From: Effusibacillus pohliae DSM 22757
GTDB lineage: Bacteria; Bacillota; Bacilli; Tumebacillales; Effusibacillaceae
Assembly: GCF_000376225.1 (NCBI RefSeq)
Contig: NZ_AQXL01000105.1
Span: forward strand, 1-38,882
DNA length: 38,882 bases
Direction of reading: 5' to 3'
Part shown: positions 2,659 to 35,374 of the stretch, piece by piece
Layout: every line of letters begins with the position of its first letter
Position numbering within the stretch: the stretch's first letter is position 1
The notes under the pieces: generated by a model
What the model was told of the DNA's origin: nothing
The model's database searches: none
The model's input: the letters and a program-made list of their open reading frames with translations, nothing else
Program-made: the position numbers and the translations under genes

Positions 2659-3033
2659 ATGCAGGGCATTCTGCTGATTGGGCACGGGTCGTCTGTGGCG
2701 GAAGCGAATCGGGGGTTGCATCGATTGGCGGAGGAAATCCGCCGCCGCAGGGAAATTGGGGTGGTCGAGGTGGCGTTTTTGAACTTGTGCCCGCCGGACA
2801 TTCCGACCGCCGTATTGACCTGCGTGAAAAAAGGGGTCACGCATCTCAACGTCATCCCGTATTTTTTGACGGATGGCGTTCTGCTGCGCAAGGCGGAGCG
2901 GATCGTGCGCGAAGAAGTGGAAAACTTCCGCGGCATGACGATGAGTTTCGGACGGCCGATCGGAGTGGACAGGCGGATCGTCGGTGTGCTGAAAGACCGC
3001 ATTCAATCAGCGCTCGCGCAGGGATCGGATTGA
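2659..3033 (+). CDS. CbiX-type sirohydrochlorin chelatase-like protein
   Basis: A 124-residue protein beginning MQGILLIGHGSSVAEANRGL, the GHGS motif of the CbiX/SirB chelatase family; this histidine is the metal-inserting residue in the family. It has a single domain of about 120 residues, the length of the small archaeal CbiX-S or half of a bacterial two-domain SirB, so it would act as a dimer. Known members insert cobalt, nickel or iron into sirohydrochlorin. A second conserved segment, NVIPYFLTDGVLL, matches the family's FFL-G-H region but here has T/D instead of histidine, so metal specificity or activity may differ. GAGGAGGG precedes the ATG. It follows an MFS gene in a likely two-gene unit. 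Confidence 0.8.
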   Translation: MQGILLIGHGSSVAEANRGLHRLAEEIRRRREIGVVEVAFLNLCPPDIPTAVLTCVKKGVTHLNVIPYFLTDGVLLRKAERIVREEVENFRGMTMSFGRPIGVDRRIVGVLKDRIQSALAQGSD

Positions 3034-3138
3034 AAAAACGGTTCGTTGCGGAGCGGGCGGAATGCAATCGATCCGGAACGGCGAGTCCGGCTGCAGTGGA
3101 TCCTATACGGGGATCATAAACGTTTTTTCAACATTCAC

Positions 3139-15789: not shown

Positions 15790-16890
15790 GTGATGGGTTG
15801 GCTACAACGGGCAAAAAGCAAATACCAGACGGACAGGGCGGCGGGCCGGCCTACCCTGATTCTCGGGATCGAAACCAGCTGCGACGAGACGTCGGCTGCG
15901 GTGATTCGCGGCGGCCGCGAGATTTTGTCGAACATCGTCTCCTCGCAGGTGGAAATCCATCAAAAGTTTGGCGGCGTGGTACCGGAAGTGGCATCCCGCC
16001 GGCATGTCGAGAATGTCGCGATCGTTGTGCAGGAGGCGCTGGACAAAGCGGGTGTCGGCCTGGATGATCTGTCGGCGGTTGCGGTCACATACGGACCGGG
16101 ACTGGTTGGCGCGCTGCTGGTCGGCGTGACAGCGGCGAAATCGATCGCCTACGCCCGGTCGCTGCCGCTGGTCGGTGTACATCATATCGCAGGGCACATC
16201 TACGCGAATTTTCTTGGGGGCGGGATGGAGCCGCCGTTGGTGGCGCTTGTCGTATCCGGCGGCCATACGGAGCTGATTTATATGCCGCAGCACGGCAGGT
16301 TCGAATTTCTCGGCCGGACGAGAGATGACGCGGCGGGTGAAGCGTACGACAAAGTGGCGCGGGCGATGGGGTTGCCGTATCCTGGCGGACCGGCGATCGA
16401 CCGGCTCGCGCATGTGGGGGATCCGGAAAAAATCGTGTTTCCCCGCGCCTGGCTGGAAGAAGGGTCGCTCGATTTCAGTTTTTCCGGCTTGAAGTCGGCG
16501 GTGATGAACGCGTTGCACAATGCGAAACAACGCGGCGAAAGATTGGATCCGGCAGATGTGGCGGCTGCTTTTCAGGCTTCAGTCGTCGATGTGCTGACGG
16601 AAAAAACGGTGCTTGCCGTTCGCCGGACAGGCGTCACCAACGTGGTGGTGGCGGGCGGAGTGGCGGCCAACCGCGGGCTCCGTGACAAGCTGCAGGAACG
16701 GGCCGGGCAGGAGGGATTTTCCGTGCTGTTCCCGCCGCTGTCGCTCTGCACCGACAACGCGGCGATGATCGCGGCCGCCGCCCATCCGTTTTACGAAAAA
16801 GGGTGGTTCCACAACCTTGACCTGAACGCCTATGCCAGCCTCCCGCTCACGCAGTGGGAAGCAGGTCCGTTTGTGGATTTGGCGAAGTAA
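15790..16890 (+). CDS. tsaD: tRNA t6A37 threonylcarbamoyltransferase TsaD
   Basis: A catalytic subunit of up to 366 residues that transfers the threonylcarbamoyl group to A37 of tRNA. Landmarks: [14 protein letters not shown] near residue 27, the iron-binding [11 protein letters not shown] histidines near 135, [11 protein letters not shown], and the C-terminal [10 protein letters not shown] with its metal-binding aspartate. The start is GTG 15790 or ATG 15793; GGAAGGA favours the former slightly. About 20 extra residues precede the usual family start. It is the last gene of the operon. The DnaA-box cluster begins 33 bases after its stop. Confidence 0.96.
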
Positions 16891-16922
16891 AGCAGCCTCT
16901 TCTGGATGTGCGCCTGAAGGGG

Positions 16923-17130
16923 CTGTCCACAAACTTGTCCACAGTTTTCACAAGTTGTTCACAATGTTTCGTGGATAACTTGCAGGATGTGCACAGGATA
17001 AGGGGGAAGAACCTGTTCATTTATCACCAGATATTATGTGAATTGCCTGTGGAATTTGTGGATAAAAGAGATGGTTTCCCCTTTTTTCAGGAGCTGTCGG
17101 TGATATTTCTGTGGATAACCTTGTGGATAA
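16923..17130. promoter_or_regulatory. DnaA-box cluster (candidate DnaA-binding locus outside oriC)
   Basis: Three perfect TGTGGATAA boxes lie at 17057-17065, 17110-17118 and 17122-17130, all in one orientation. CGTGGATAA (16970-16978) and, in the opposite orientation, TTGTCCACA (16935-16943) differ by one base. CTGTCCACA (16923-16931), TTGTTCACA (16955-16963) and TTATCACCA (17021-17029) differ by two. Eight sites in 208 bases is far above chance. An AT-rich stretch follows at about 17131-17160. The region lies between tsaD and a sporulation-type histidine kinase gene and contains no plausible gene. dnaA and dnaN are not in the window, so this is more likely a satellite DnaA cluster than oriC. 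Confidence 0.85.
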
Positions 17131-17244
17131 TGGAGATAAAAATTTTGCCTCTTTTGGAAAGAAATCGCTCTCAATAGCAGGAATTCGATTTCATTCAGTA
17201 GAATTCAAAACGTAATGGGCGATGGCTGGTGGGGGGCGGCAGTT

Positions 17245-18660
17245 TTGAAAGCGAACAATTGGGACCCGTTACACGAACGGATTCTGGATTCGATCCCGGT
17301 TGGGATCATCGTGTATGATTGCGCCGGAAACGTTACATACGTCAACAAGATGGCGGAAGCGATCACAGGTTACAACTTGCAGGAGATCCAGTTGTTTCAG
17401 AAAATCAACCATGTGCTCGACGGCGATCAAGAGATATTTTGGAAAACGTTGCAATCGGGACAGCCTTTTTTCGGATTTGAGTACTATTGCCCTGCGAAGG
17501 ACGGAACGGAAATCCCGGTCGTAACTTCGACAACGCCGCTGTTTGACGATGCCAACCGGCAGATCGGAATCGTCGCTGCATTGATCGCTCATTCGGAGAT
17601 GGGCCGCTTGCGTGCTGTGGAAGAGCATGCCTCTCTGATCTTGGATCATATTTCGGACGGAGTGATCACGCTGAATAGGGAAGGGGTGATCACCGGTTTC
17701 AACCGGGCAGCGGAAGATATTACGGGCCTGAACAGAGAGGAAGTGAAGAATCGCAAGCTGCAGCAAGTGTTTCCGTTTGAACCGGCTGTGCTCGATAAAG
17801 TGCTGGAGACGCTGCGGATCGGACGGGAGTACAAGGATATTAAGGCGCAACTGCAGGACAAACAAAGACGAACCCGGTATATACTGGTGACGACGCGGGT
17901 CTTGCGCAACCGGACAGACAACGTGATGGGCGTAATGTTGACATTCAGGGACATCACCATGCAGGAGCTGCTGGAAGAGCAGGTCCGCCAGTCGGAAAAG
18001 CTGGCGGTGATCGGCGAGTTGGCTGCCGGTACGGCGCACGAAATCCGCAACCCGTTAACCTCGGTCAAGGGGTTTATTCAGTTGCTCGACCGCAAATATC
18101 AGGAAGACGCCCCGGAGAAGGAATATTTCCGGATCATTCTGTCGGAACTGAACCGGGTGAATGATATCATTCGCGAATTTCTGCTGTTGTCGAAACCGAC
18201 CGACCCCAACCTGCGGCTGATCGATATCAACTCAGTACTGGAGGACATCCGGACCCTGATGAGCAGCGACGCGCTATTGCGCAACATTGAGCTGAACATT
18301 CGATTGTCCGATGTTCCAGTTGTCTGCGAAGTGGATGTCGAACAAATCAAGCAGGTGTTTATCAACCTGATCCGCAACGCGTTCGAAGCGATCGGTTTCA
18401 ATGGCAAGCTGTCGATCGGCATCCGGGTGATGCAGGACGAGTGCGAGGTTCATTTTACCGATAATGGGCCAGGCATACGGAAAGAGGTGTTGGCTCGCAT
18501 CTTTGAGCCGTTTTTTACCACCAAGGAGGAAGGAACGGGCCTTGGCCTGACCGTGTCCTACCGGATCATTCAAAACCACGGTGGGACGATTCTGGTCGAA
18601 TCGGAGGAAGGACAGGGGACCACTTTCCGCGTCCGATTGCCGCTTGCAAAAACACAGTGA
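17245..18660 (+). CDS. PAS-domain sensor histidine kinase (soluble, sporulation-kinase/NtrB-like)
   Basis: A kinase of about 471 residues with no membrane segment. Two PAS domains (about 10-115 and 130-240; openings ILDSIPVGIIVYD and ILDHISDGVITLN) are followed by a HisKA helix with the phospho-accepting histidine in GTAHEIRNPLTSVKG (about residue 265) and an HATPase_c domain with NLIRNAFEAI, DNGPGI and GTGLGL boxes. Layout and sequence style resemble KinA/KinE-type sporulation kinases of Bacillales. No response regulator is adjacent, as usual for phosphorelay kinases. TTG 17245 has GGTGGGGGG upstream; ATG 17215 is in frame but lacks a site. Its promoter region overlaps or adjoins the DnaA-box cluster, so DnaA may regulate it. 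Confidence 0.85.
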   Translation: MKANNWDPLHERILDSIPVGIIVYDCAGNVTYVNKMAEAITGYNLQEIQLFQKINHVLDGDQEIFWKTLQSGQPFFGFEYYCPAKDGTEIPVVTSTTPLFDDANRQIGIVAALIAHSEMGRLRAVEEHASLILDHISDGVITLNREGVITGFNRAAEDITGLNREEVKNRKLQQVFPFEPAVLDKVLETLRIGREYKDIKAQLQDKQRRTRYILVTTRVLRNRTDNVMGVMLTFRDITMQELLEEQVRQSEKLAVIGELAAGTAHEIRNPLTSVKGFIQLLDRKYQEDAPEKEYFRIILSELNRVNDIIREFLLLSKPTDPNLRLIDINSVLEDIRTLMSSDALLRNIELNIRLSDVPVVCEVDVEQIKQVFINLIRNAFEAIGFNGKLSIGIRVMQDECEVHFTDNGPGIRKEVLARIFEPFFTTKEEGTGLGLTVSYRIIQNHGGTILVESEEGQGTTFRVRLPLAKTQ

Positions 18661-33787: not shown

Positions 33788-34927
33788 TTATTTCGGTAAA
33801 GCGTTTCGATTGCCGAAAAGTGCGTTTCCGAAATCTTTTGCTACCTGCTCCTGCAGTCCAGGTAAAACGTGAGAATAAGTGTCGAGGGTGATACTGATCT
33901 TGGAATGTCCAAGACGTTCGGATACAATTTTGGGATGGACTCCTTGCTGAAGCAATAAACTGGCGTGGGTATGACGAAGATCATGAAAACGAATGTAAGG
34001 CAAGTCTGCTTTTTGGATCAGCTTGGTGAAGTGTTCGCGTAAAAGAGACTGTGCGACCACATCACCATTTTTGCGGGCGACCACTAAGTCTTGATCCCTG
34101 TAGGCATCTCCCATCAGTTCCTTTTCTCTGTCCTGATCCTTTTTGTGTTTCAACAAATCCCCTATAACTTCATGAGGCAAGGCGATCATTCGCTTCCCGC
34201 TGTCGGATTTGGGATCCCCAAATTCGATGGTGCCTCTTACTTGGGTGGTGGTTCGTTGTACGAATAAACGCCCGTTTGGCAGATCGATATCACTCCACCG
34301 CAACGCGAGAATCTCACCTTGCCGCATCCCTGTGGTGATGGCCAATAGATACGCAATGTAAAACCGATCGTGACGGGCAACCTCCAGAAATCGTTGAACT
34401 TCCTCCAAGGTCCAAACAGAGAATTTTTTCTGCTCCGGCTTTGGAGCTTTTACCATATCCGCAACATTGCGGGGAAGATATTCCCAACTGACGGCTGTTT
34501 CCAGTGCGTCGTGGATCATGGTATGAATTTGCGACACATACCGGTTGGATAATGGCTTGTCTCCAGATTGCAATTTCGCATAGAATTCCCGTAAGTGCTG
34601 TGGCTTGAGTTTGCCTAACTCAATATGCCCAAGGTGGGGCTTTACATGAAGCCGGATGGTGCGTTCGTAGATTTCGTATGTCCGTAAACGCACACGGCTT
34701 TTTTTATCATCGAGCCACTTGTCCAGGAACGCAGCGAAGGTGTCCTTGGATGGTTCGGTGTAAAGACCTGCATGAACCTCCTGGACTTTGGCGGCCAGAA
34801 ATTTTTCCGCTTCTTTTTTCGTATTGAAGCCGCTGTGCCATTTGTATTTCTTTTTGCCTTTCTCATCGTATCCCAAAAAGAGAACCACGCACCATTTCGA
34901 TCCACGTTTTCGAATATGTCCTCGCAT
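33788..34927 (-). CDS. int: Phage-type tyrosine recombinase (integrase)
   Basis: A 379-residue site-specific recombinase that would integrate and, with an excisionase, excise the element. An N-terminal AP2-like arm-binding domain (about 1-55, GSKWCVVLFLGYDEKGKKKY) is followed by a SAM-like core-binding domain (about 60-160) and the catalytic domain. The active residues are visible: Arg202 (TTGMRQGE), Lys near 240, His315 and Arg318 (HDLRHTH), His341 (LGHS) and nucleophile Tyr351 (DTYSHV). GAGGGG lies 9 bases before ATG 34927. It is the first gene of the element next to groEL and closes the leftward lysogeny cluster. Confidence 0.95.
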   Translation of the reverse strand: MRGHIRKRGSKWCVVLFLGYDEKGKKKYKWHSGFNTKKEAEKFLAAKVQEVHAGLYTEPSKDTFAAFLDKWLDDKKSRVRLRTYEIYERTIRLHVKPHLGHIELGKLKPQHLREFYAKLQSGDKPLSNRYVSQIHTMIHDALETAVSWEYLPRNVADMVKAPKPEQKKFSVWTLEEVQRFLEVARHDRFYIAYLLAITTGMRQGEILALRWSDIDLPNGRLFVQRTTTQVRGTIEFGDPKSDSGKRMIALPHEVIGDLLKHKKDQDREKELMGDAYRDQDLVVARKNGDVVAQSLLREHFTKLIQKADLPYIRFHDLRHTHASLLLQQGVHPKIVSERLGHSKISITLDTYSHVLPGLQEQVAKDFGNALFGNRNALPK

Positions 34928-34939
34928 CCATACATCCCC

Positions 34940-35374
34940 TCACCAGTCATATTGCTTAAATCCTTCGTGATACACCAGTTGGGCCAGCTCCTGCTTTACA
35001 ACACCCGTTAGAACGCCGATTACGGCAAAATCGGTCGGTGCCAGTTCAAGCGGAGGGATCTGGTCGCCGGTGACCCGAAGCGTAACTTCCGAGTTGTAGA
35101 TGTATTCAAGAATCCGGATCGTTACCTCGTCGCCGAAAGTCACCAGGCAGATCTGCGCCTCGGAAGTCGGCCAGCGTTGTTCCCGAAAGATGAGATAGTC
35201 TCCCGGATGAATTCCGAAGCCATCCAGACCTTGGTCAGTGATTTGAACGGCATACCGCCTGTTGAAATCAAAAGTGGAGACTCTCAGAAGCGGGTAATCT
35301 TCCTTTGGCTCCAGGAGAGTCGTTGTAAGCGAGGGCACTTCTCCCACATAAGGGGTTTCGTAATCTTTTCCCAT
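34940..35374 (-). CDS. S24/LexA-fold protein lacking the catalytic dyad
   Basis: A 144-residue protein without a DNA-binding domain. Residues 42-63 (AVQITDQGLDGFGIHPGDYL onward) align without gaps to the LexA/CI C-terminal domain, and DEVTIRIL (82-89) to the strand that carries LexA's catalytic lysine; LAPTDFAVIGVLTGVV matches its last strand. The catalytic serine position is Gly49 and the lysine position is Arg87, so self-cleavage is not expected. GGAGGTG overlaps the immA stop 5 bases upstream. Being downstream of the ImmA protease and repressor, it may be a decoy, sensor or partner in repressor control; this is inference. Confidence 0.72.
   Translation of the reverse strand: MGKDYETPYVGEVPSLTTTLLEPKEDYPLLRVSTFDFNRRYAVQITDQGLDGFGIHPGDYLIFREQRWPTSEAQICLVTFGDEVTIRILEYIYNSEVTLRVTGDQIPPLELAPTDFAVIGVLTGVVKQELAQLVYHEGFKQYDW

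Follow-up and report, generated by a model that had tools for sequence, protein, structure and literature searches.

A DnaA-box cluster directly downstream of tsaD in Effusibacillus pohliae, a putative positional counterpart of the Bacillus subtilis gcp-ydiF cluster

We found nine candidate DnaA boxes at positions 16923-17139, directly 3' of tsaD, in the 38,882-nucleotide (38.9-kb) stretch of Effusibacillus pohliae DSM 22757 DNA that was analysed (the window). Judged by its sequence, the feature is an extra-oriC DnaA-box cluster. We consider it probable that this cluster is orthologous in position to the gcp-ydiF cluster of Bacillus subtilis and is a putative ATP-DnaA-holding locus that would restrain initiation. 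The B. subtilis gcp cluster is already described in the literature; conservation of the site across the phylum and a common geometry were not found in the literature searched, and an earlier description in Okumura et al. 2012 is possible.

The cluster lies in the 324-bp gap between tsaD (gcp; 15790-16890, plus strand) and the gene for a PAS histidine kinase (17215-18660, plus strand), a gap that holds just short overlapping ORFs. The tsaD gene encodes a tRNA t6A transferase subunit (NCBIfam TIGR03723, 441.9 bits, cut-off 296.1) and is 74% identical to tsaD of T. flagellatus; the gene order 5' of it is thiL, a stretch without assignment, tsaB and rimI. Searching both strands for TTATCCACA with at most two mismatches and starts within 16881-17215, we found three perfect boxes, five boxes at no more than one mismatch and nine at no more than two. 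For comparison, 2000 single-base shuffles of the gap (325 bp) gave means of 0.004, 0.10 and 1.15 boxes at zero, at most one and at most two mismatches, and no shuffle held more than 1, 2 and 6, respectively. Across the entire window the count at up to one mismatch is ordinary (8 boxes, reached in 12 of 100 shuffles), and it is the local crowding that is unusual, with five of these eight boxes within 200 bp. The original prediction of eight DnaA-like 9-mers, three of them perfect, was borne out and understated the cluster, and the two perfect boxes described as 12 bases apart are those at 17110 and 17122. The AT-rich stretch said to follow the boxes is present but modest (67% AT in 17131-17214 and 59% across 16891-17214).

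The boxes are arranged in two modules. The left module is mixed in orientation and comprises box 1 (16923-16931, plus strand, two mismatches), box 2 (16935-16943, plus, one mismatch), box 3 (16955-16963, plus, two mismatches) and box 4 (16970-16978, minus, one mismatch), the last opposed to box 3. This order of three plus-strand boxes and one minus-strand box, with steps of 12, 20 and 15, is shared by all four family genomes and by genome G117, which belongs to the same order. In the right module, all four candidate boxes are on the minus strand, including the three perfect ones: box A (17057-17065), box C (17110-17118, 53 bp after A) and box D (17122-17130, 12 bp after C); the fourth, box E (17131-17139), is degenerate with two mismatches and abuts D at 9 bp. 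The 12-then-9 step of boxes C, D and E was seen again in G129, G130 and G143. Outside both modules lies a weak box-like 9-mer (17021-17029, plus strand, two mismatches), which has a two-mismatch match at the corresponding place in G002 and G003 (locus L009 stands in for G003). In the family alignment, 46 of the 72 columns inside eight boxes are invariant versus 25 of 145 outside them, and some of these 25 form a single block, ATTATGTGAATT (17033-17044, strand not assigned), which is invariant across four genomes of the family amid an otherwise divergent spacer. The block is possibly a promoter element or a divergent box.

The DnaA-box cluster that the original prediction placed beside gcp in B. 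subtilis does exist. In the accessible part of PMC4447404, Table 1 lists region 4 as 'downstream of gcp; downstream of ydiF' with 10 sites, compared with nine candidates here, both 3' of tsaD. The same portion of that paper places the gcp-ydiF region among the strongest DnaA-binding regions in vitro, with a Kd of 0.15 µM with ATP and 0.33 µM with ADP, and 16-fold more of the region was recovered with ATP-DnaA than with ADP-DnaA at 55 nM. The gcp cluster presumably belongs to the set of six extra-oriC clusters in Okumura et al. 2012. Excerpts of two reviews (PMC5295017, PMC13220808) state that deleting six clusters in B. subtilis leads to early initiation, and in the first of them a single cluster returned at various places partly relieved the deletion phenotype; one of the two doubts a significant role for the clusters. 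By analogy with this deletion work, we infer that the tsaD cluster would tune initiation.

We surveyed tsaD loci in 161 Bacillota genomes, 121 across the class and 40 from other families (drawn from 192 non-class genomes, one per family, in handle order, where the place of tsaD was known). Clusters of four or more boxes within 250 bp follow tsaD on its 3' side in 98 of the 161 genomes and precede it on its 5' side in none; at a threshold of three boxes, the counts were 113 and 2. The flanks reached up to about 7.5 kb and, at contig ends, were shorter than 5 kb on the 3' side in 19 genomes and on the 5' side in 35, so that 1034 kb of DNA was covered 3' of tsaD and 964 kb 5' of it. Clusters of at least four boxes occur in 76 of the 121 class genomes, and in 28 of 39 families in the class and 22 of 40 others. 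The remaining 63 genomes are without such a cluster, and 11 of the 39 class families have none in any sampled genome, including f8 (4 genomes), f19 (8), f24 (4) and f29 (3). Most clusters start close to the end of the tsaD match (78 of 98 within 400 bp, three at 0.4-1 kb and 17 farther, up to 3.2 kb). Of 80 named tsaD loci, 22 reach five boxes or more within 300 bp, in each case 3' of the gene; Paenibacillus species, Tumebacillus lacus, a Moorella and several Clostridia genomes are among them. The 31 loci whose titles name other phyla have at most one box per 300 bp, an unfair test, as these are mostly GC-rich and some are short. Boxes beside tsaD are thus not absent from all relatives. Judged by this spread, the tsaD array is probably old in Bacillota.

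Intergenic DNA is AT-rich and the 5' side of tsaD is mostly coding, which makes it an imperfect control for the 3' side; both points would favour chance or composition as the source of the boxes. This explanation is contradicted by the gap shuffles and by controls run on the same 3' sequence, and we give it next to no credence. The reversed motif gave no cluster of at least four boxes on either side of tsaD in any of the 121 class or 40 other genomes. Within the first 1 kb 3' of tsaD, where the true box motif gives clusters in 81 of 161 genomes, 292 of 300 permuted 9-mers (each unlike the box at four or more positions) gave none. The best permuted 9-mer, with 47 genomes, equals the box shifted by one base, and the next best reached three.

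The neighbouring gene on the far side of the cluster differs between genomes. In many relatives, as in B. subtilis, it is a convergent ABC-F gene, which the window replaces with a co-directional histidine kinase gene; the claim that the position is kept while the neighbours changed therefore holds. With an ABC-F query identified by eye (L302), we found such a gene within the tsaD 3' flank of 83 of the 161 genomes, 64 with the cluster and 19 without. In all 64, the two genes are convergent and the cluster lies between their 3' ends; the same 64 are counted among the 98 cluster-bearing genomes. There is no flanking promoter in this setting, and hence the cluster is not explicable there as control of those promoters. 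The 19 genomes with the ABC-F gene and no cluster indicate that the cluster is dispensable or replaceable. The convergent ABC-F neighbour describes where the cluster lies rather than what it does.

The convergent setting of these 64 genomes would also suit a roadblock in which bound DnaA stops or insulates the converging transcription of tsaD and the ABC-F gene, and no intrinsic terminator was found at 16850-17300 of the window, where the scan stayed near shuffled levels. We consider a roadblock very unlikely. Of the 78 clusters that start within 500 bp of tsaD, 44 are also accompanied by a terminator-like hairpin, which precedes the cluster in 32 cases and otherwise lies within or after it (a scan without a shuffled control), and a roadblock has no need of helical phasing.

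In the family of E. pohliae, a role in transcription has more in its favour. The array might let DnaA repress or activate the downstream kinase gene and so link replication to a sporulation-type phosphorelay. In B. subtilis, DnaA acts through sda, linking replication state to the sporulation phosphorelay. All four genomes of the family have the kinase gene after the cluster and on the same strand, and the kinase resembles AtoS and the sporulation kinase KinD, although it falls below the cut-off for both. Four genomes of family f11, three of them with the cluster, have a kinase 44-48% identical to it at 0.9-1.2 kb after tsaD. The invariant ATTATGTGAATT block inside the cluster and the lack of a detected terminator in the gap region fit such control as well. 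The sigma-70 scan of 16850-17300 gave one weak promoter-like match, near shuffled levels, and Rfam elements had no matches at 16500-17500. Set against the 64 genomes with the cluster flanked by two 3' ends, transcription control is an unlikely account of the array; a transcription role may have been added in this family only.

We compared the position of the cluster with distance from the origin in 27 of 30 genomes with known places of dnaA and tsaD, taking the contig as a whole circle. In the 19 cluster-bearing genomes, the cluster lies at 0.15-0.69 of a replichore from oriC, a spread that led us to reject a fixed oriC distance as the kept trait. In three genomes tsaD lies beyond 0.70 of a replichore, and all three are without the cluster, as are five in which tsaD is nearer; one of these five, G064, has three boxes. 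Hence, the kept trait is the gene neighbourhood, rather than a set distance from oriC.

We found that dense groups of perfect boxes are rare in the E. pohliae genome. Its 3.36 Mb contain the perfect box 39 times and the reversed control 7 times (583 versus 382 at no more than one mismatch). Three perfect boxes come within 250 bp of one another at only three sites, one 3' of tsaD, one 5' of dnaA (contig C114, about 35.6 kb) and one 5' of tsaC (contig C132, about 60.0 kb). The genome-wide check of box density thus did not refute the original prediction, with comparable perfect-box density confined to these three places. The prediction had also placed dnaA and dnaN away from the cluster, and both are on another contig, C114, where dnaA (33965-35287) has boxes on both sides and is adjoined by dnaN. 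Further boxes lie 5' of and inside the TsaC/Sua5 gene (C132, about 58.98-60.06 kb; L090:3981-5062) and at the jag-mnmE junction (C114, 38.05-38.49 kb; L089:11056-11488). The TsaC/Sua5 gene of B. subtilis is, we assume, ywlC. The dense places of this genome (oriC, jag-mnmE and TsaC/Sua5) correspond in their neighbouring genes to B. subtilis regions 1/2, 5 and 6, and Table 1 in the available part of PMC4447404 gives region 5 as trmE/jag and region 6 as ywlC. As a separate observation, box-like pairs 51 bp apart lie near four contig ends (C62:61/112, C63:6844/6895, C81:33/84 and C115:56675/56726) and might be a repeat at which the assembly breaks.

A second unwinding region, one of the roles first suggested for the cluster, or a cryptic origin would agree with the oriC-like box density and the modestly AT-rich (67%) 3' flank. 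The DnaA-trio argues otherwise, as we found it in two of 98 tsaD clusters versus 20 of 30 dnaA-dnaN regions, and neither dnaA nor dnaN adjoins the cluster. The window has no trio; since no trio was picked up in the dnaA-dnaN region of this genome either, that absence taken alone is weak. We regard an unwinding or origin function as extremely unlikely.

The tsaD arrays share a geometry. In 50 tsaD 3' clusters, one per family, 88% of the 292 boxes are on one strand, and adjacent boxes are co-oriented in 199 of 242 cases compared with 40 of 106 in 18 dnaA 5' clusters. Same-strand spacings peak at 9 bp (38 pairs), 12 bp (30), 21 bp (27), 42 bp (17) and 53-54 bp (28) against a mean of 4.2 per distance. 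Same-strand pairs at 9, 12 and 21 bp occur in 32, 28 and 27 of the 50 clusters, respectively, and the twelve further spacings examined between 7 and 20 bp occur in 0-6 each. Over 15-130 bp, the spacings have a period of 10.9 bp with a power of 97 compared with about 1 for independent random values, although the test pools pairs within clusters, which are not independent. This period suggests that the boxes lie on one face of the helix, and the preferred spacings suggest a complex of defined shape, more than a sponge.

The clearest complete form of the array is A-9-B-42-C-12-D, to which a fifth box, 9 bp on, is added in some cases. Allowing B-C steps of 41-44 and two mismatches in one box, we found the four-box form in 13 of the 50 clusters. 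Aligned to this form, the window array has A, C, D and the degenerate fifth box in frame, and no box B is recognisable among its boxes at up to two mismatches. In a position-blind scan of 121 whole genomes at no more than three mismatches, the four-box pattern gave nine matches and the control none; seven of the nine sit 80-357 bp 3' of tsaD. Of the other two, one is on a broken contig, where it lies at an ABC-F-like gene's 3' end, and one is 5' of dnaA in a class genome (L308); both genes were identified by eye.

A triple pattern gave at least 104 matches in 79 of 199 phylum genomes and none for the control. Counting those in genomes with a known tsaD place (at least 86), 42 are 3' of tsaD and 44 elsewhere, and among the matches listed all 42 at tsaD are on the tsaD strand. 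Since both patterns were learned from tsaD loci, their geometry is not independent of those loci; the places found are. At 16 other loci with the triple array (L404, L406-L414, L416-L418, L425, L427 and L429; genes named by eye), an hpf-like (ribosome hibernation) gene is near in seven and a comFC-like gene in seven; six, in part the same loci, have the gene for an amino-acid ABC transporter binding protein nearby. Elsewhere, four perfect boxes lie in about 110 bp at L221 (about 2994-3102; G001:C1:2920993-2921101), 5' of an ORF that by eye resembles citrate synthase.

We compared tsaD with other sites that have box arrays. It is the commonest of three extra-oriC sites, with clusters in 23 of 30 (within 1.5 kb) versus 17 of 30 for tsaC and 4 of 29 for mnmE. 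We rejected mnmE as an equally conserved site, given that four or more boxes lie 5' of it in those 4 of 29 and within the gene itself in three of 29. The tsaC clusters are 5' of the gene in 17 of 30 class families and 3' of it in none of the 30. Their commonest spacings (17 clusters) are likewise 12, 9 and 21 bp; unlike those at tsaD, they sit on the promoter side of the gene and have no orientation bias (48% on one strand). The available part of PMC8203912 lists ywlC among DnaA-regulated genes, and tsaD goes unmentioned in the consulted excerpts of PMC12494982 and PMC7561715. The arrays at two t6A genes, tsaD and tsaC, may reflect chance of location or a link. Clusters 5' of dnaA were found in 18 of 30 loci (in 12 loci the contig starts no more than 150 bp from dnaA, and 11 of these are misses). 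Bacillota oriC regions have the same box consensus as the tsaD arrays, and the four-box match 5' of dnaA is of the tsaD type; unlike at tsaD, 9 and 21 bp are outside the twelve commonest spacings of the dnaA 5' clusters. Hence, with the same spacings at tsaC and the triple pattern elsewhere, the geometry belongs to a wider class of DnaA arrays and is not unique to tsaD.

The E. coli systems offer a model for such an array. In the accessible text of PMC5742627, ATP-DnaA assembles head-to-tail, and the essential boxes of datA, the locus of DnaA-ATP hydrolysis, are unidirectional, have optimised intervals and carry an ATP-DnaA oligomer. The tsaD arrays are likewise non-coding and mostly unidirectional with preferred spacings, and the right module of the window is entirely on one strand; the left module is mixed. 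DARS1 and DARS2 have a fixed spacing of a small box core, in which box I faces the opposite way to boxes II and III. The left module of the window has the opposed pair at 16955 (plus) and 16970 (minus). DARS, which releases ADP from DnaA, favours ADP-DnaA (PMC5742627, in part), whereas the B. subtilis gcp/ydiF region favours ATP-DnaA (PMC4447404, in part). In addition, datA requires an IHF site, and a 2026 review (PMC13220808, as excerpted) describes B. subtilis as without IHF, datA and DARS, and states that it is unknown whether B. subtilis has regulators that balance ADP- and ATP-DnaA.

Taken together, the datA-like layout of the right part, the ATP preference of the gcp/ydiF region and the early initiation after deletion of six clusters point to a putative cooperative ATP-DnaA-holding locus that would restrain initiation. 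ATP-DnaA would bind the same-strand boxes head-to-tail in one cooperative complex. The array would keep DnaA off oriC, its dose would double at fork passage, and the smaller pool of free ATP-DnaA would restrain early or repeated initiation. Roughly 10-fold overproduction of DnaA did not cause over-initiation in B. subtilis, as reported in the excerpted review (PMC13220808), and this fits titration badly. We also raise a tentative and rather doubtful reading, in which the array at tsaD would be to Bacillota what datA is to E. coli: an old scaffold of preferred geometry on which a defined head-to-tail ATP-DnaA filament would alter the nucleotide state or activity of DnaA, and not merely its free amount. 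The step from holding DnaA to changing its nucleotide state is speculation.

An array kept beside one gene across much of the phylum, helically phased and mostly unidirectional, is a poor fit to a loose sponge. It is a concrete element to mutate, and its spacing predicts that a half-turn insertion would weaken function and that a full-turn insertion would keep it. If the array were a counterpart of datA, then, together with the array 5' of tsaC, control of initiation would be tied to two t6A tRNA-modification genes. The tsaD arrays may be a common buffer or switch for the timing of the start of replication.
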